A DNA stretch of 50,630 nt from the IMG/VR virus record IMGVR_UViG_3300013119_000330, positions 1-50,630 of that record. One strand, written 5' to 3'. Both the position numbers and the translations under genes were made by a program. Below the pieces are notes generated by a model. The model had not been told where the DNA came from and ran no database searches. It was given only the letters and a program-made list of their open reading frames with translations. Below are positions 9,959 to 27,260 of this stretch, piece by piece. How positions within the stretch are numbered: position 1 is the first letter of the stretch; every line of letters begins with the position of its first letter. This DNA is from a virus.

Positions 9959-10034
9959 TGGTGGACCCGCTCGGATTTGAACCGAGGACCGATCGGTTAT
10001 GAGCCGATTGCTCTAACCACTGAGCTACAGGTCC
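9959..10034 (-). tRNA. tRNA with CAT anticodon, probably tRNA-Ile2
   Basis: 76 bases forming a full cloverleaf, 5' end at 10034, 3' CCA encoded at 9961-9959. The anticodon CAT is at 10001-9999 in the loop CTCATAA. Position 1 is G paired with C, so it is not the initiator. The D and anticodon arms resemble bacterial tRNA-Ile(CAT), whose C34 is changed to lysidine to read ATA; elongator Met is the alternative. Confidence 0.92.
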
Positions 10035-10174
10035 TTATCCCTGCCATACAGGGAGTTTAATCTCTCTTTTCTCTCTTCTTCTGGTGAGGTTCGTACTCTC
10101 GAAAGAATCATCCTTACTATTGCAGAGAGAGTATATGCATAGCACGCAATCAGCAAGATATGCTCAAACTTCAT
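10025..10174 (-). CDS. Small membrane protein overlapping a tRNA
   Basis: 49 residues: M-K-F-E, a transmembrane helix (about residues 5-20), then a charged R-T-S-P-E-E-E-R-K-E-R segment. The ATG overlaps the RNA ligase stop as ATGA. Its last codons and TAG stop lie inside the 5' acceptor and D-arm of the tRNA, an unusual 10-base overlap. Confidence 0.6.
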   Translation of the reverse strand: MKFEHILLIACYAYTLSAIVRMILSRVRTSPEEERKERLNSLYGRDKDL

Positions 10175-11313
10175 GCTGTTGTAAACCTGTAAAAGTTCCT
10201 ACAGACAGTTCTGAAATAATTAACGCCACCCTCATTATCGTTGTGTAACTCATACAATACTTTGTGATCTCCAACATCTTGTGATTGCTGCATTGTGTCA
10301 TTAACGACGTCAACCATCTTATATGCTGCTTCGCGAACTTCCTCTGGAAGCATGAACATCATTTTGTCCAAGCGTCCCTTGATCATACAATTCATAATGT
10401 ATTTGTAACTCAATTTACTCTTGACCATTTCCCCGATATAGTTAATATATTTAAACTTAATCAGTTGGCCATCAAAGTTCATGACCCAACCCTCGTGATT
10501 TGACACTGCACGACTACCAACCTCATCGACTAGATCGTTCAGTGTCATCTCACGAGACTCAGGACACACAAAGAGGTGCGGCATTGCTTCGCAGATATGC
10601 TCTAACTCTGCGAGATTCAAGGACTCGCCATCGGCATCATAGGCGTTCAACAGGTACAGCGTTTCCGCATTGTCATAATCAACGAAGACCTTTGTATAGG
10701 GATGGATCAACTCAACCACTAGGGTCATGACCTTTTTACCTAACGTCTCCTCTACCTGTTGAAAGTCCGTAAGAGAAAGCATGTTGCCAGCAATCTCCGC
10801 ACTAACTGTTCCAAATTTACCTCGGGTGGAGGAACACAGTTCACCGTTATGGACAAAGTATTCAATCATATGTCCATCCGCTTTCTCACGAGCGAGGTAT
10901 TTTTGTGTCCCGAACTTACTGGTGAGTGCCTCATAAGTGTTCTCTGGCAACTCACTGTAGTTGAAGAACTTCTCGAACCCGCGACTAACGAGAACTGGTT
11001 CCTCCACACTGAAGTCGTAGATCATGCCACGCATGTCGCGCAGGGGTTGTGACCAACCTCGATCTACCTCATGTAATACATTATGTGCTTGTCCTGTGTA
11101 GTTCAACAGGATAATCTGACGCTCTTCGTCGATGTCAAACCCAAGTAACTCTCCTGGGTTTTTCATGTCTGTGTGCTCAAGGTGCAATAGTTCCTTGAAC
11201 ACATGAGCGTTTTCTCTCTTAAACGATGCCCACTTTGTTTTCTTGTCTTCGATAGTACGAATCTCCGAAGTAATAAGTTTAGCAATCTTCTGAACATTTG
11301 GATGCAATGACAT
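10171..11313 (-). CDS. RNA ligase (nucleotidyltransferase superfamily)
   Basis: 380 residues from the ATG at 11313; an ATG at 11319 is closer to the AAAGG site than ideal. It has the covalent nucleotidyltransferase signatures: motif I K-A-D-G at 144-147 (adenylated lysine), the preceding R-G-F-E-K-F-F-N-Y element, a later motif with V-E-L, E-G-W-V-M-N, and motif V K-F-K. The layout is that of T4 Rnl1-like ligases, which reseal cleaved RNAs such as host tRNAs cut by anticodon nucleases. It has its own consensus promoter (11345-11373) and is followed within 140 bases by a tRNA gene. Confidence 0.88.
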   Translation of the reverse strand: MSLHPNVQKIAKLITSEIRTIEDKKTKWASFKRENAHVFKELLHLEHTDMKNPGELLGFDIDEERQIILLNYTGQAHNVLHEVDRGWSQPLRDMRGMIYDFSVEEPVLVSRGFEKFFNYSELPENTYEALTSKFGTQKYLAREKADGHMIEYFVHNGELCSSTRGKFGTVSAEIAGNMLSLTDFQQVEETLGKKVMTLVVELIHPYTKVFVDYDNAETLYLLNAYDADGESLNLAELEHICEAMPHLFVCPESREMTLNDLVDEVGSRAVSNHEGWVMNFDGQLIKFKYINYIGEMVKSKLSYKYIMNCMIKGRLDKMMFMLPEEVREAAYKMVDVVNDTMQQSQDVGDHKVLYELHNDNEGGVNYFRTVCRNFYRFTTA

Positions 11314-11344
11314 AATCATGTCCTTTCATTTAAGTTGTGAATGT

Positions 11345-11379: not shown

Positions 11380-12381
11380 TCAAGAAAAAAGTTTATCAAG
11401 TTTTAGAGTGGTAATTCCATTAAAGTTTGGATTACCTTGCAAATCTAAAACAATGCCCTTTGCAATAGAGTATTGTGACTTGTTGTGGACCGAACCTCCT
11501 GAAGTTTTCCACTTAGACACCTCGTGATCGAGCGCCGATTGAACGAACTTGCTGTGGAACCACAGCCTAAAATCCCCCTGCGGTCCAGCAGTTGACAGGA
11601 TGCTAGGGTATGCACGCATCAGTTGAGTCAAACCACCCACCAGTTCACTCTTCAACTGGTCCTTGGTCTGCTTAAAAGATGGCAAACTACGGTAGACATC
11701 AACAGCGGGTTTGAAAAACATACCACTGTTCGGTGCTTCTGCTAGTGTGGGATCTCCACTCTTCCTCCCTGACGCATATAAGGCGCACTTCCTTGCAGCA
11801 TTCACCTTAATCTTGCATCCTTGAGGGTCACCCACTCGACCCCCACTCTCACCTGATCCATAAACATAGACACCAGCGGCACGCATACAAGCAGCAAGGT
11901 CAACCTGCTCTCGGTAATTCGCGTAGTATCGGTGAACATAGGCTACTTCTGCTGAAATGCCAGTCCGACCCTCAAGGTTGAAGTCTACGAATAACTGATG
12001 GTACTCCTCTATAGTATCAACCTCTCGATAGTCCACAACGATTTCTGTTGCATTTGGCCACATCTGCAACCAAAGGTGCAAAGAGTGATCACCATCATAA
12101 ACAAGAAGTTGCTTTGTAGACCTGACATATACAACTCGCGGTGCTTGCCAGCTATCCCCGTTAATCCCTCTCTTGGTGATCTTCTTTAAATTCCTCACCT
12201 CAGTGTCTCTCTGGATGTGGCGCTTCAGATCAGAGATTTTCATGGTACGAAACCTCTTTTTATACTCCTGAAGTCCTTTGTTTCCTGGTGATGGGAGTGG
12301 TTTGATCACTGGTGGTTGATCGAAATAATCCCACAAAGATGTTTGAATAGGGTTTCCGCCTGAAGTAATTTTACTACTCAT
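11380..12381 (-). CDS. ParB/Srx-fold-like protein in methylation-nuclease island
   Basis: 333 residues from the ATG at 12381 (AAGGAG upstream). A ParB-like catalytic or nucleotide-binding element, V-Y-D-G-D-H-S-L-H-L-W, lies around residues 94-104. It is preceded by a strand of the type that carries the family's basic contacts and followed by a V-D-Y-R-E-V ... F-V-D-F-N block, as in ParB-like nuclease domains. The C-terminal 180 residues are unassigned. It ends the island that starts at 16478 and has its own promoter (12464-12491). Not a plasmid-type ParB: no recognisable helix-turn-helix or ParA partner. Confidence 0.65.
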   Translation of the reverse strand: MSSKITSGGNPIQTSLWDYFDQPPVIKPLPSPGNKGLQEYKKRFRTMKISDLKRHIQRDTEVRNLKKITKRGINGDSWQAPRVVYVRSTKQLLVYDGDHSLHLWLQMWPNATEIVVDYREVDTIEEYHQLFVDFNLEGRTGISAEVAYVHRYYANYREQVDLAACMRAAGVYVYGSGESGGRVGDPQGCKIKVNAARKCALYASGRKSGDPTLAEAPNSGMFFKPAVDVYRSLPSFKQTKDQLKSELVGGLTQLMRAYPSILSTAGPQGDFRLWFHSKFVQSALDHEVSKWKTSGGSVHNKSQYSIAKGIVLDLQGNPNFNGITTLKLDKLFS

Positions 12382-12463
12382 TGTTTTCTCCTTATTGCTC
12401 CTACGAGCTGTTAGTTTTATTTTCATCGTGCCCTAACGTCCAATTGACTAACACGATAAATCT

Positions 12464-12491
12464 ATTATATCATACTTTTTTTGTTTGTCAA
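12464..12491 (-). promoter_or_regulatory. Sigma-70 promoter for 11380-12381
   Basis: Minus strand: TTGACA (12491-12486), 16 bp, TATAAT (12469-12464). Both hexamers are perfect. Confidence 0.8.
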
Positions 12492-12500
12492 GATTTATTT

Positions 12501-12995
12501 TTAAATAATTCTAACACCGTGCTTCTTGATCTGAGTGTTCGTAATGTCTGCTGAAAGACGCGGGTCTTTCTTGGACAGTACAGTGGGGAACTTCTTTTTC
12601 AACTTGGGCAGAAGTAAGTTAAATACCTGCTCTCCTGACAGTTTCCACACCTCTACCAGTTTTCCGCCTTCAAACCTGATGTAAAAGTGTTCGGGATACT
12701 TTGCTAGTTTCTCGTTCTTTAGGTATGAAACCTGATCCTCCCATGTATTCTGCACTGATATGCCAGTGTACGATCCCTTGACTTTTTTGTCAATAGTGGA
12801 CTTATATTCGACGGGTTGCCCTGCCTCATTGTACGCATCGGCACCAGATAGAGTCTCTGATATTGTGTGCCCCAGTTCAATCATTGCGTAAATCTCTTTA
12901 GATCTCGCATAACTAAACGGGTCTCCCCATCCTTGATTGCTAGATAACTCTGCCATACGATTGTATAGTTTCTTATATTCTTCTTCTGGGGTCAT
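12501..12995 (-). CDS. Putative PD-(D/E)XK restriction-type endonuclease
   Basis: 164 residues from the ATG at 12995 (AAAGG upstream). A clear PD-(D/E)XK-like active site: G-A-D-A-Y (D53) followed nine residues later by V-E-Y-K-S-T (E63, K65). Around it are the helix-strand elements expected of type II restriction enzymes. It lies between two ParB-like genes and close to two DNA methyltransferases. Metal-dependent DNA cleavage is inferred; the recognition site is unknown. Confidence 0.7.
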   Translation of the reverse strand: MTPEEEYKKLYNRMAELSSNQGWGDPFSYARSKEIYAMIELGHTISETLSGADAYNEAGQPVEYKSTIDKKVKGSYTGISVQNTWEDQVSYLKNEKLAKYPEHFYIRFEGGKLVEVWKLSGEQVFNLLLPKLKKKFPTVLSKKDPRLSADITNTQIKKHGVRII

Positions 12996-13027
12996 CTTGT
13001 TTCTTCCTTTCTTCAAACTATAGAAAC

Positions 13028-13056
13028 ATTATATGAACTATTTGTTTAAATGTCAA
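13028..13056 (-). promoter_or_regulatory. Consensus sigma-70 promoter for the nuclease 12501-12995
   Basis: Minus strand: TTGACA (13056-13051), 17 bp, TATAAT (13033-13028). Spacer TTTAAAC... nearly matches that of the RNA ligase promoter. Confidence 0.85.
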
Positions 13057-13059
13057 GAA

Positions 13060-14103
13060 TTATTCTACAACTGAAAAATTCTTTGTAGCAGTCACAGAAT
13101 GATGGTTGTTGTATAGTTCTACAACGGCGAACCTATCTCCTGGGAGTTGTCTGAAAATAACAACCGAAACTTCTGGAGTGTTTTTGTATACCTTCAAAGT
13201 CTTCTTAACCGATTCCACGATGTCTTTTCTGGTTTTTTTGACGTCACTATCAGTCATACCGTTAAGGTTTGACAAACTAATTGCTATGGTCTGCTTCACC
13301 CCTGGGTTGTCTCGGAACTGTTGCGTCAATACCCCACTGACATTCGGGTCGAAACGTGACTTTGAGTTAATTACAATCAGGTGCTCGTTATAACTTATCG
13401 CCTTTGAGTCTGCGCCATCCCAACTAGAGTGTTGAGAATCCCTGTAGTATCGCACATTATCAACCACGCTGTAGGTAATTCTACCCAATTTTTGATTGAT
13501 CGGTTTCGACAGTGCTTTCTCTATTCTATTATAGAACCACCGCTCTGTCCTAGCAGATCTCGGATAGATGTCCTCCTTCATATATTTCGCGGCAGCATTA
13601 GCGTACGGTTCCAAGTCCTCTGAGTTTTTCTCAGGGTCAAGGGGAACAGTACGTCCTTTGTTCACGATATTAAATATACGCCCGTTATTGATTCTCCTTA
13701 AAGTTGCACCCTCCATGTCTGCGTCTGTAGCAGGAGTATCCCCTAGATGATCATTAGCAGAGTCCTGGAAGTCCTCCCACTCATCGTCACTAAATTGTAA
13801 AACCTTTTGCTGAAATCTTGAGACTAGGACCTTCTGGTTTTTATCTACCTTTTTCACTGCTTGCTTTGCCTTTAGTCTTGTGGTTCCATCCATACAGGTA
13901 TTAGCACGCAAACTTATTGGCACCTCTTGTTCAGTACCATTTAGAAATTGTGAAGTGTACCTTGCAATGTTGTTCTGCTGGTTTCCGTTAATTCGAGCCT
14001 TCTGGTTAAAGTCTTGAATCTCGTCAGGATCAACCCATTCAAGACTGTTGAGATAGGCGTCTCCATAAGTGGAAATAAAATTTTCGTGTTGCTTTTTATT
14101 CAA
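13060..14103 (-). CDS. Second ParB-like protein of the island
   Basis: 347 residues from a TTG start at 14103, 8 bases after AAAGGAG. A ParB-like motif M-D-G-T-T-R-L-K-A lies at about 71-79, preceded by V-P-I-S-L-R (compare P-I-x-V ... x-D-G-x-H-R in ParB domains). The rest is unassigned, with a beta-rich second half. It lies between the nuclease 12501-12995 and the methyltransferase 14138-15022, under its own promoter (14132-14160). A role as regulator, specificity factor or nuclease cannot be chosen from sequence. Confidence 0.6.
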   Translation of the reverse strand: MNKKQHENFISTYGDAYLNSLEWVDPDEIQDFNQKARINGNQQNNIARYTSQFLNGTEQEVPISLRANTCMDGTTRLKAKQAVKKVDKNQKVLVSRFQQKVLQFSDDEWEDFQDSANDHLGDTPATDADMEGATLRRINNGRIFNIVNKGRTVPLDPEKNSEDLEPYANAAAKYMKEDIYPRSARTERWFYNRIEKALSKPINQKLGRITYSVVDNVRYYRDSQHSSWDGADSKAISYNEHLIVINSKSRFDPNVSGVLTQQFRDNPGVKQTIAISLSNLNGMTDSDVKKTRKDIVESVKKTLKVYKNTPEVSVVIFRQLPGDRFAVVELYNNHHSVTATKNFSVVE

Positions 14104-14131
14104 CTAAATTCTCCTTTCATTTTCTTTGTAC

Positions 14132-14160
14132 ATACTATCATGAGTTTTCTAATCTTGCAA
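14132..14160 (-). promoter_or_regulatory. Sigma-70-like promoter for 13060-14103
   Basis: Minus strand: TTGCAA (14160-14155), 17 bp, TAGTAT (14137-14132). Lies in the end of the methyltransferase gene, beside an 18-base perfect palindrome at 14162-14179. Confidence 0.6.
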
Positions 14161-15022
14161 GACTTTTTTCGAAAAAAGTTTCATCTACCTCGCACCCTAG
14201 AAAGTTCCTCTCTGTTATCTTAGATGCAACAGCAGTAGTACCTGATCCACTGAAAGGGTCAATGACTAAATCTCCAGGGTTGGAGTGTTTTGCGATCAAG
14301 TCCTGAAACAGTAGAAGACTTTTCTGCGTAGGATGAAATCTGTCCTTACCACCTTGTAGTGGATAACTGTAGATTGCGTTATCATACTTGCTATTAAACG
14401 TAGGGCTGCCTACCTTAACACCCAACAGTGCTATCTCTCTACAGTTCGTTAGATAGTTTCTAGAACTATTCAATGGCTGAGGGTTTGTCTTGATCCACTC
14501 TACAAATCTCAACTGCTTGAACTTGTTTTGCTCCAGTATGTTCTTCAAGTCAGTGATCTTCCACAGATCAAAGAACACAATAGCAGTGCCGCCCTTACGC
14601 AATACTCTGTAGAACTGATGGACAAACTCGTTCAGAGACTCTAACGTAAATTTAGAGTCCCACTCCCCATAGTCTGTCTTTACTGCATATTTTTTGCCGT
14701 ATATACTACCGTACTTTAGATAGTTTCTCTTGTGCTTCTCTAATTCGTCTCGCCATAACTCTTTGTTGTCCTTGAATTTACTGTTCTCGAAAAACTGTTG
14801 CCACTGTTCTGCGGTCTTGTAACTGTTCCATTGCTCAGTAGTCTTTACGTCTTGAGATCCCGCCTTATCCTGTTCGTTAACATGATCAACCCATTTATCC
14901 ATACCAGTCTCTCTTGACGTGATATAGGGAGGATCTGTCAGCACAAGATCAACAGAATTGTTATCTAGTCCTTTGAGAAATTCTACCCCTTCCTTTAGTT
15001 CAATTGACTGTTCGATTTTCAT
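14138..15022 (-). CDS. DNA methyltransferase, beta-class order (N6-adenine or N4-cytosine)
   Basis: 294 residues. Catalytic motif IV D-P-P-Y at 30-33 comes near the N-terminus, and the SAM-binding motif D-P-F-S-G-S-G-T-T at about 255-263 near the C-terminus. That order defines beta-class amino-methyltransferases such as those of type II systems. F-H-P-T-Q-K precedes the SAM motif as usual. The ATG follows directly on the stop of the nuclease-like gene 15023-15592. Target could be DNA adenine or cytosine amino groups. It probably protects phage DNA against its own island nucleases or host enzymes. Confidence 0.9.
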   Translation of the reverse strand: MKIEQSIELKEGVEFLKGLDNNSVDLVLTDPPYITSRETGMDKWVDHVNEQDKAGSQDVKTTEQWNSYKTAEQWQQFFENSKFKDNKELWRDELEKHKRNYLKYGSIYGKKYAVKTDYGEWDSKFTLESLNEFVHQFYRVLRKGGTAIVFFDLWKITDLKNILEQNKFKQLRFVEWIKTNPQPLNSSRNYLTNCREIALLGVKVGSPTFNSKYDNAIYSYPLQGGKDRFHPTQKSLLLFQDLIAKHSNPGDLVIDPFSGSGTTAVASKITERNFLGCEVDETFFEKSLARLENS

Positions 15023-15592
15023 TTAAAATGATCCTATAATTCTTTTTTGTAATTCGCGCTTCATGCTTTTATAATCAATATCCCCAATCAGTGTTGGCGT
15101 TACTGACCTATGCACAAACTCCAGTTCAACAAGGGGAATCTTGGCGATTATCGCATCAGAAGATCTAACAAGATACTTAGACAGTGACTCTCTGGTGATG
15201 ATTGCTAGACTATTTTCTTGCCCAATCATATAGTAATCAGATTTGAGTGAGTCTATTAGCGGTTCGTTATCTTGGTTGTTCCCGATTTTATTTACAACTC
15301 TGACATTGACATTCTTTCTAAGGTTTCCCTTCTTTGTTATCAACCCGTGAGAAATAAATTTGAATTCCACATGATGATTGTGCTTGGTATCAAGATGATC
15401 GCGTCCAGTTTCATCAATCCACTTGAGGCGTCCTTCACTAAAGGCTTCAACACCCCCCTCTGCGAAGTCTGCTTTGTCGAACCTAAGTTTTCTCTCATTC
15501 AGAGATGGACCAATGGATGTCATCAGATTAGTATAACGTCGTCCATCGATCACTGTCGACAACTCTTTTGCGTATTGTTTCAAGGTGAGCAT
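15023..15592 (-). CDS. Putative restriction endonuclease between two methyltransferases
   Basis: 189 residues, ATG preceded by AAGGA. A candidate PD-(D/E)XK site: D65/D68 (G-R-D-H-L-D) followed by V-E-F-K-F with E76 and K78. Wedged with 0 and 1 base spacing between a D12-class methyltransferase upstream and a beta-class methyltransferase downstream, the same gene set as DpnII-type systems (two different methyltransferases plus one nuclease). I cannot verify homology to a known enzyme. Confidence 0.62.
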   Translation of the reverse strand: MLTLKQYAKELSTVIDGRRYTNLMTSIGPSLNERKLRFDKADFAEGGVEAFSEGRLKWIDETGRDHLDTKHNHHVEFKFISHGLITKKGNLRKNVNVRVVNKIGNNQDNEPLIDSLKSDYYMIGQENSLAIITRESLSKYLVRSSDAIIAKIPLVELEFVHRSVTPTLIGDIDYKSMKRELQKRIIGSF

Positions 15593-15593
15593 A

Positions 15594-16478
15594 TCAGTTC
15601 CTTTTGTAACTGGTTATTAGCAACTCTTTGCGATCTTTTTGTGCTTCTGTGTATACCTTACTAGATTGCATTGTATATGTCAAGTCCCAATCATTAAAAT
15701 AATAATCTGAAAATCGTTTTCTTAAAACTTCGTTAGAATTATATGTAATCATCCATTCATGCTTACACTTTACAACGTCGTCATAAAATCTCATGTGGTC
15801 AAAACCTGAGTGCATGTTGCCGTTCTTACCATAGAGGTCATCTTTAATGTCATATGGTGGATCGAGGAATACAAAGCAATCTTGCCCCTTTGCGTTCAAC
15901 ACGCGATCATAGTCAAAATTAGTGATTTTCCAATCCTGTATTATCTTAGAATATGCTGGCAGCTTGTTGATGCCAGTCATACTAAAGTTCGATTCTGATG
16001 CTTGCTCTGAAAAAGAACTGCTCTCACCAAGTCCAGAGAAACTACACTTATTTAGTATGAAAAAATATACCGCCTTAGTAAAATCATCGACACTTGCGAT
16101 GTCTGCCCTTGCTTTATTGAACAGTGCTCTGTGCTTTTCGATGTTATCCAAAATAGACCTGTCCCATTGCGACTTGTCTACTTTATCCTTTCTCAGGGGT
16201 TTGGTGACATACTCAATGGGTTTCTTGATGCGTGCCAACTCTTGATGCAGTGCTGGTCCTTTATCCCTTAGTTGCACCCAGAAGTTATACAAACTGTAGT
16301 ACGCATCGTTAACCCAGACCTTTGTACCTGGTCGTGTTTGTGTGACGTGTAGTGCCATTGAACCACCTCCGAGGAATGGTTCTCTAAATTCCTTAAACTG
16401 CTTAGGCAGATCAGGATCCAGTTTCTTGATGGCCCTGGACTTGCCGCCAGGGTAACGTAATGGTGTTTTCAATGCCAT
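15594..16478 (-). CDS. D12-class (Dam-like) adenine-N6 DNA methyltransferase
   Basis: 294 residues. SAM-binding start L-R-Y-P-G-G-K-S at 7-14, F-R-E-P-F-L-G-G-G-S at 31-40 and catalytic D-P-P-Y at 206-209 are the D12/Dam alpha-class signatures. It transfers a methyl group to adenine N6, often at GATC in this class; the target here is unverified. AGGAG precedes the ATG. It follows the lipoprotein 16503-17051 by 24 bases and heads the methyltransferase-nuclease block. Confidence 0.92.
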   Translation of the reverse strand: MALKTPLRYPGGKSRAIKKLDPDLPKQFKEFREPFLGGGSMALHVTQTRPGTKVWVNDAYYSLYNFWVQLRDKGPALHQELARIKKPIEYVTKPLRKDKVDKSQWDRSILDNIEKHRALFNKARADIASVDDFTKAVYFFILNKCSFSGLGESSSFSEQASESNFSMTGINKLPAYSKIIQDWKITNFDYDRVLNAKGQDCFVFLDPPYDIKDDLYGKNGNMHSGFDHMRFYDDVVKCKHEWMITYNSNEVLRKRFSDYYFNDWDLTYTMQSSKVYTEAQKDRKELLITSYKRN

Positions 16479-17051: not shown

Positions 17052-17083
17052 AGTTTCTCCTTTTTTTGTTGATTAAATAAAAG

Positions 17084-17157
17084 CGCCCTGGGTAGGATTC
17101 GAACCTACGACCTGCGGATTAGAAGTCCGATGCTCTATCCAGCTGAGCTACCAGGGC
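17084..17157 (-). tRNA. tRNA-Arg (TCT)
   Basis: 74 bases, full cloverleaf, 5' end at 17157, acceptor GCCCTGG paired with CCAGGGC, discriminator G73. Anticodon TCT at 17123-17121 in loop CTTCTAA reads AGA. No CCA is encoded. G73 also occurs in bacterial tRNA-Arg(UCU). It would support AGA/AGG codons in phage genes. Confidence 0.95.

Positions 17158-25676: not shown

Positions 25677-27260
<1,584 letters not shown>

Follow-up and report, generated by a model that had tools for sequence, protein, structure and literature searches.

A candidate phage-borne cassette of a DNA methyltransferase, a PvuII-like nuclease and a ParB/sulfiredoxin-like protein

Restriction–modification (R-M) systems are usually read as bacterial defence. 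In chloroviruses and marseilleviruses, viral methylase and nuclease genes are adjacent, and their products are associated with degradation of host DNA in the former and with exclusion of rival viruses in the latter (PMC7019647, PMC7253447). The hosts of these viruses are eukaryotic, and the passages cited mention no ParB-like third gene. Jumbo phages are reported to carry R-M systems and Mom–endonuclease fusions, for which an attack on host or superinfecting DNA was predicted (PMC7824862), but these are Mom fusions rather than a methylase with a PvuII-like nuclease, and the word “ParB” is absent from the text of that paper. Here, we describe a run of six genes in a virus DNA of 50,630 nucleotides (IMG/VR record IMGVR_UViG_3300013119_000330, positions 1 to 50,630; hereafter the window). 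Three of these genes encode a beta-class DNA methyltransferase (bMT), a predicted PvuII-like endonuclease (Nuc2) and a ParB/sulfiredoxin (Srx)-like protein (ParB1), and on balance we read them as a phage-borne R-M-like cassette, presumably a weapon with a nucleoside triphosphatase (NTPase)-type accessory, its function being inferred from sequence. No description of such a trio was recognised among the open PubMed Central papers that our searches listed; to the original prediction, made from the letters of the window alone, the layout of the ParB-like plus nuclease part was likewise not familiar.

Compared with type II R-M systems that have a PvuII-family endonuclease, the locus likewise places a methylase close to a small nuclease gene (164 aa), and the D/E/K regions align. 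It differs in being phage-borne, in often having a third gene for a ParB-like or GHKL protein, and in carrying the promoter sequence on the nuclease and not the methylase; moreover, bMT has a motif of the DPPY and not the SPPY type. Some GmrSD systems have a partner protein that is ParB_n only (PMC12373910). The ParB-like family shares the ParB/Srx-type N-terminal domain with GmrSD/DUF262 type IV enzymes, and one of its 20 members matches GmrSD_N; however, the combination of DUF262 with HNH/DUF1524 is not found in these members, and here the gene has a methylase and a type II-like nuclease as its neighbours. ParB/Srx domains also occur in phage conflict proteins (DdrB-like), and Bce_0392 is a ParB domain fused to a DNA methylase (PMC5512222), whereas the ParB-like gene described here is stand-alone and is partnered by a PvuII-like nuclease. 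R-M systems with MORC/GHKL ATPases have been described as well (PMC2292703), and a GHKL ATPase lies between Nuc2 and bMT in one of our contigs; the third gene of the window, in contrast, is ParB/Srx-like, and no helicase gene was seen within the six-gene run.

Nuc2, bMT and their ParB-like partner

Scanning IMG/VR with a bMT profile gave 61 loci, which fell into 44 clusters at 95% bMT identity, and the surroundings of these loci were searched with a Nuc2 profile and with a ParB-like profile that had ParB1 and three relatives as its seeds. Nuc2 adjoins bMT or is one gene away in 23 of the 44 clusters. Both Nuc2 and a ParB-like gene are present in 13 clusters, Nuc2 only in 10, a ParB-like gene only in 6 (two of which end at a contig edge) and neither in 15, several of the last being distant methylases. 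In 13 of the 23 Nuc2-bearing clusters, the ParB-like gene lies between or beside bMT and Nuc2, at most 92 bp away by open reading frame (ORF) bounds. The orders Nuc2-ParB-bMT, Nuc2-bMT-ParB, bMT-Nuc2, Nuc2-bMT and bMT-ParB were all found, and the order of the window, bMT-ParB-Nuc2, is confined to its own lineage among the 13 three-gene clusters (orders from 14 loci). In G015, the contig of locus L027, a Nuc2 relative (74%) lies about 20 nt directly downstream of a bMT relative (82%).

Over 14 loci, the distances of Nuc2 and bMT are correlated (r = 0.40, p = 0.005), so that the two diverge in step. The fastest-diverging part is the ParB-like protein, with a median identity of 17% as compared to 57% for Nuc2 and 63% for bMT. 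The methylase and endonuclease genes are thus neighbours and co-inherited, as in type II R-M systems, and bMT is likely the modification partner of Nuc2. As far as seen, the cassette appears to be a phage system, since bacterial and archaeal genome contigs, as covered by a pattern-limited scan, gave a single relative of Nuc2, on a 3.3-kb piece of a Flavobacteriales metagenome-assembled genome.

Judged by gene content, the third gene is optional or movable, and exchangeable, because it is absent from some Nuc2-bMT contigs, lies elsewhere in G015 and is replaced in two others. G015 belongs to a Nuc2-only cluster and has its ParB-like gene beside an RNA ligase. In L165, a GHKL ATPase (HATPase_c_3, E = 4.7e-23; L165:1222-2700) stands between Nuc2 and bMT, and in L145 this place is held by a 466-aa protein with weak matches to DUF72 (E = 0.0063) and HNH (E = 0.1). 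Among the remaining Nuc2-bMT contigs with no family ParB, L149 and L175 encode unassigned proteins in which ParB-like motifs were noticed by eye, and no ParB-like protein was seen in L143, L147, L161 and L186. Searching whole contigs with the ParB profile gave a match in one of 22 records (G008, already known).

For Nuc2, the ATG at position 12995 gives a protein of 164 aa, fits the numbering D53/E63/K65 and is supported by the G015 relative, in which a stop codon immediately precedes this ATG. These three residues, which we take to be the catalytic residues of PvuII, are invariant in 26 of 26 aligned relatives; the base-contacting histidines of PvuII are, we assume, not conserved. The family profile built from the 26 relatives matched PvuII in the PDB, both as a tandem construct (E = 1.5e-4) and as ordinary single chains (best E = 0.06), with an alignment that spans the catalytic D/E/K region. 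Two of eight family members matched the Pfam PvuII family (PF09225) at E up to 1 (best 0.002), and the PHROG family to which Nuc2 belongs, phrog_35715, has no assigned function. We therefore predict that Nuc2 is a PD-(D/E)XK endonuclease and call it “PvuII-like” only, because it misses the Pfam PvuII cut-off.

The family of ParB1 has 20 distinct members. The ten best PDB matches of its profile were ParB, KorB, Noc or sulfiredoxin chains, each weak (E = 0.0055-0.19), and all ten fell within positions 25-124 of the 353-position profile. Eight of the 20 members matched phrog_1033, which is annotated “ParB-like”, and one matched ParB_N (E = 0.0083). The member in L021 matched GmrSD_N (E = 6.6e-5 to 7.1e-05, below the curated cut-off), and families annotated as “ParB-like partition nuclease” and “nuclease” were matched by one or two members each. 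The matches are weak but consistent and point to a ParB/Srx-like family. Since RE_MjaI (E = 0.011) and RE_Eco47II (E = 0.088) were matched weakly by one member each, the C-terminal part, which is unassigned, is possibly a nuclease itself; an HNH domain was found in none of the 20 members.

Promoter sequences distinguish the nuclease from the methylase gene. A perfect match was defined as TTGACA-N16/17-TATAAT (12/12 positions), a statement about the consensus sequence only, and for the clusters we counted matches of at least 11/12 that lie no more than 150 nt from the first ATG of an ORF. The window has five perfect sigma-70 matches, of which three lie directly before Nuc2, ParB2 (the sixth gene of the run) and an RNA ligase gene, so that the separate promoters of the original prediction fit the sequence. 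Between positions 11300 and 16650, there are 25 promoter-like matches as compared to 11.0 ± 3.1 in shuffles, and a perfect match also precedes Nuc2 of G015 (L078:14979-14951). Across the clusters, the promoter sequence was present before 11 of 23 Nuc2, 4 of 17 ParB-like and 3 of 44 bMT genes, against 23 of 350 other ORFs; the excess over these controls was strong for Nuc2 (p = 4e-7), slight for the ParB-like gene (p = 0.03) and absent for bMT (p = 0.57), and Nuc2 differed from bMT (p = 2e-4). Bacterial R-M systems usually express the methylase first. A nuclease-first order would suit a phage whose DNA enters the cell already methylated.

The six-gene run and the D12 module

The window is phage DNA that encodes a DNA polymerase, a replicative helicase, a ribonucleotide reductase, a GroEL-like chaperonin (25677-27254; phrog_5725, E = 3.5e-144) and an RNA ligase. 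The virus is probably marine, as the nearest named relatives of the window are marine cyanophages; no match to the psbA/D family was found in any of the eight contigs searched, and cyanobacterial hosts are therefore not established. A public contig of 146,626 bp, G001, is 99.97-100% identical to the window at the loci compared, and contig L006 is almost identical to it. All six ORFs of the original prediction lie on the minus strand, at the positions given (Table 1), with 1 base between D12 and Nuc1 and 0 bases between Nuc1 and bMT, and both methyltransferases have firm Pfam matches. Phage genes for tRNA-Met (9959-10034) and tRNA-Arg (17083-17157) flank this region.

Table 1. Genes and promoter sequences of the six-gene run and its right border, in window coordinates
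Feature	Position	Strand	Evidence or remark
D12-class (Dam-type) methyltransferase	15594..16478	-	Pfam D12, E = 3.1e-30; separate module, common to the phage group
Nuc1, candidate PD-(D/E)XK endonuclease	15023..15592	-	motif D65/D68-E76-K78
bMT, beta-class DNA methyltransferase, DPPY motif	14138..15022	-	Pfam N6_N4_Mtase, E = 1.2e-31
ParB1, ParB/sulfiredoxin-like, N-terminal DGTTRLKA motif	13060..14103	-	family profile
Perfect sigma-70 consensus match before Nuc2	13028..13056	-	12/12 positions
Nuc2, predicted PvuII-like PD-(D/E)XK endonuclease	12501..12995 (TTG-start reading 12501-13016)	-	phrog_35715, E = 1.8e-63
Perfect sigma-70 consensus match before ParB2	12464..12491	-	12/12 positions
ParB2, DGDHS-motif protein	11380..12426	-	ParB/Srx-like by motif only
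T4 RnlA-type RNA ligase, outside the system	10171..11319	-	Pfam RNA_lig_T4_1, E = 1.3e-14; right border of the slot

Sister phages were gathered from IMG/VR by scanning with the RNA ligase and with D12, and in nine contigs that hold both border genes (G001 included) D12 on the left and the RNA ligase on the right enclose a variable stretch. No ParB-like gene was seen in the slot of five of the nine contigs (L023, L024, L025, L026 and L031), of which L023 and L031 resemble each other. The slot of L021 holds a bMT relative (64%), a ParB-like gene and a PDDEXK_11/Mrr-type protein (L021:9494-9943, E = 2.4e-08). Those of L020 and L022 hold a second D12 methylase, a small protein and a ParB-like gene, which in L022 was recognised by eye only, its protein not being recruited by the family profile. 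The small protein lies between the two D12 methylases (L020:6645-7184, L022:6345-6869) and resembles EcoRI by eye only (PDGG...EGKKQ...GNAYER); neither copy had a convincing Pfam match, and that of L020 matched phrog_2400 (E = 5.4e-28).

In all eight sisters, a D12-class gene is followed by NucX, a 175-aa protein with a D..E.K motif, which in L020 and L022 comes after the second such gene. A NucX profile scan gave 12 contigs, with NucX after a D12-class gene in 11 and before one in L057, and the two genes overlap by 4-26 bp in 10 of 10 cases measured. Searches of Pfam, PHROGs, PADLOC and the PDB gave no notable match for NucX, which is a candidate nuclease by its motif only. The window has Nuc1 behind D12, at the place that NucX occupies in the sisters. 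D12 and a candidate nuclease are therefore one module, a second and independent methylase–nuclease pair in the same slot.

D12 itself matches 436 phage records, 424 of them cyanobacterial phages by name, and by these matches it is a cyanophage Dam-type gene that is common to the phage group; in P-SSM7, S-SCSM1 and S-SKS1, it is found in the vicinity of clamp-loader genes, and no nuclease is annotated next to it. Nuc1 is a candidate endonuclease by its motif. Its relatives are near-identical copies in two IMG/VR contigs, and no significant homologue was found in phages, in plasmids or in a pattern-limited scan of genome contigs; searched singly against Pfam, NCBIfam, PHROGs and PADLOC, neither Nuc1 nor ParB1 had a convincing match. 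Nuc1 and NucX are similar in place and motif, but comparison of their profiles gave no significant similarity (hhalign P = 0.023, probability 2%; single-profile E = 4-9). The similarity of Nuc1 to synthetic alphaRep repeat proteins (phmmer against the PDB, best E = 1.4e-4) was set aside, because it adds up from many single matches, all of them with an i-Evalue above 100 in the alignments shown. ParB2 was not recruited by the iterated ParB-like profile, had no Pfam match and no significant relative outside this phage lineage; its best matches were weak, one of residues 98-188 to ZorC, a component of the Zorya defence system (E = 0.0013, 15.9 bits), and one to phrog_31575 (E = 0.0039), and by its motif it may be a further ParB-like partner.

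These neighbourhoods in IMG/VR relatives change how the run is divided. The original observation is real, and the nuclease residues that it named all exist in Nuc1 and Nuc2. Of the two nucleases and two ParB-like proteins that it counted, Nuc2 and ParB1 have gained family evidence (with a PvuII match for Nuc2), while Nuc1 and ParB2 are left with motifs, ParB2 lacking homology to the family. The grouping of the first three genes as a DpnII-type set does not hold as a conserved unit: bMT goes with Nuc2, as in 23 of 44 clusters and in G015, and the D12-class gene goes with NucX, so that gene neighbourhoods divide the run into two modules, D12-Nuc1 and bMT-Nuc2-ParB1. Independent occurrence of the parts in related phages, which the original prediction had named as an argument against itself, was found for D12, and in part for Nuc2 (P-SSM2, P-TIM68) and for the trio (complete in 13 of 23).

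Word counts and possible target sites

The tetranucleotide CCGG is absent from the window against 48 expected and occurs 9 times in G001 against 168 expected. AGCT, AGCC, CTCGAG and GAGCTC are also depleted in the phage group, which suggests that it is under strong restriction pressure; CTCGAG and GAGCTC are nearly absent from G001, G002, G008, G012, G014, G015, G020, G023 and the pooled bMT contigs, and control contigs G016 and G017 show no such depletion. GATC is near expectation in the window (239 against 266), which speaks neither for nor against a DpnII/MboI-type system. It is absent from G009 (L021; 0 of 65) and G020 (L054; 0 of 231), both of which have a D12 Dam-type gene, and G020 is also without GGCC, CCGG and CGCG.

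The PvuII site CAGCTG was considered as the target of Nuc2. It is the most over-represented palindromic hexamer of the window lineage (window 22 against 6.0 expected, G001 71 against 18.2, G002 12 against 2.4; 64 against 30.3 in a codon-shuffle control for G001), and of the AGCT sites, 49 in the window and 177 in G001, 22 and 71 respectively lie within CAGCTG, the others being depleted. Among 13 sister contigs, it is absent from 11 and occurs twice in G023 and three times in G021. However, CAGCTG likewise ranks first in the control contig G016 (66 against 32.1), and G015, which has a Nuc2-bMT pair, avoids it (1 against 12.9). Pooled over 33 of the 61 bMT loci, observed and expected counts were 19 and 18.4 for Nuc2-ParB-bMT, 3 and 8.3 for Nuc2-bMT-ParB, 12 and 16.2 for Nuc2 and bMT only, 1 and 2.0 for bMT-ParB, and 5 and 16.3 for bMT with neither partner, that is, neutral to low, and we do not accept CAGCTG as the site. 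The exemption of CAGCTG from AGCT avoidance in the window lineage would fit protection by a lineage-specific methylase, although G015 shows the opposite.

For NucX, we considered avoidance of an RGCY site as its own target. AGCT is depleted in all NucX contigs counted, yet also in T4-like cyanophages, where no NucX was seen in the stretches searched (whole genomes were not searched for NucX); self-avoidance was not accepted, because host pressure explains the depletion as well. Three RGCY words (AGCT, AGCC/GGCT and GGCC) tend to be depleted together in NucX contigs, P-SSM2 and P-TIM68, and CGGCCG is a context exempt from this depletion in G001, G002, G008 and G014.

A proposed phage weapon and its alternatives

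Under the cassette reading, bMT would methylate phage DNA at the target of Nuc2, so that the genome arrives pre-protected; the host polymerase would make Nuc2 early, and Nuc2 would cut unmethylated DNA of the host, of rival phages or of both. The ParB/Srx-like protein would bind NTP and, as an accessory, license, target or restrain Nuc2; in some contigs, a GHKL ATPase or a different large protein stands in its place. D12 with Nuc1 (NucX in the sisters) would act as a second, independent pair. Destruction of host or competitor DNA by the cassette, as originally proposed, is plausible. More tentatively, and with some doubt on our part, the trio may represent a new three-component class of restriction, an offensive phage weapon: a hypervariable ParB/Srx NTPase, exchangeable for a GHKL ATPase, would gate or load a PvuII-type nuclease, and the usual order of expression would be reversed, the nuclease coming first since the genome is pre-methylated.

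Several results weigh against the cassette reading. The PvuII similarity of Nuc2 is modest and lies mainly in the catalytic half, and Nuc2 scores 13.3 bits (E = 0.08) against PF09225, where the gathering cut-off is 25. AlphaFold2 models have a mean pLDDT (predicted local distance difference test) of 36 for ParB1 from one sequence and of 46 for its L021 relative from four, and the best Foldseek match of a ParB-like model, itself of low confidence, has E = 0.19. ParB-like distances do not correlate significantly with those of Nuc2 (r = 0.14, p = 0.09) or bMT (r = 0.12, p = 0.11). A ParB-like family member is not beside Nuc2-bMT in 10 of the 23 clusters, and searching one whole contig record for each of these 10 clusters found none, though the contigs may be fragments. 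In the stretches read, Nuc2 has no close bMT relative in P-SSM2, where it is alone, in P-TIM68, where it is beside other methylases, or in other contigs, and no self-consistent Nuc2 target site emerged from composition.

It is unlikely, in our view, that only the methyltransferases matter, as protection of phage DNA from host restriction, with Nuc1 and Nuc2 decayed or serving replication, recombination or packaging. The loss of CCGG and other words suggests heavy restriction pressure, and T4-like cyanophages carry Nuc2 with no close bMT relative beside it, both as this explanation expects; but Nuc2 is not decayed, with its D/E/K residues invariant throughout, it neighbours bMT in about half of the clusters (23/44) and diverges together with it, and two different candidate nucleases, NucX and Nuc1, follow a D12-class gene in the same slot. 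Somewhat less probable still is that the ParB-like protein is the effector, an NTP-regulated nuclease, and that Nuc2 and bMT are a separate restriction pair that shares its neighbourhood. DNase and NTPase activities have been reported for ParB/Srx domains (PMC5512222), single members match GmrSD_N, RE_MjaI and RE_Eco47II and one or two the families annotated as nucleases, bMT-ParB occurs with no Nuc2 in 6 of 44 clusters, and the ParB-like protein shows no significant co-divergence with either partner. The close placement of the ParB-like gene in 13 of the 23 Nuc2-bearing clusters and the lack of HNH in all 20 members argue otherwise.

The explanation to which we give least weight, and which we consider very improbable, is a DpnII/MboI-type system with GATC as the site that D12 and bMT methylate and Nuc1 cleaves, Nuc2 and ParB being a separate unit. 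D12, Nuc1 and bMT do abut, also in the same run in L006, and one D12 with one beta-class methylase resembles the DpnII set, but the recurrent neighbour of bMT is Nuc2 and neither D12 nor Nuc1, D12 occurs elsewhere with no nuclease beside it or with NucX, and the searches made for Nuc1 found no relatives beyond near-identical contigs.

If the cassette reading is true, bacteriophages would have their own counterpart of the chlorovirus weapons, in the form of a recurring methylase–nuclease pair whose ParB-like partner is exchangeable and whose nuclease gene carries a promoter sequence. One could then ask directly how such phages attack the DNA of hosts or rivals, why ParB/Srx NTPases stand beside restriction enzymes, and whether the accessory sets the target or the timing of cutting.

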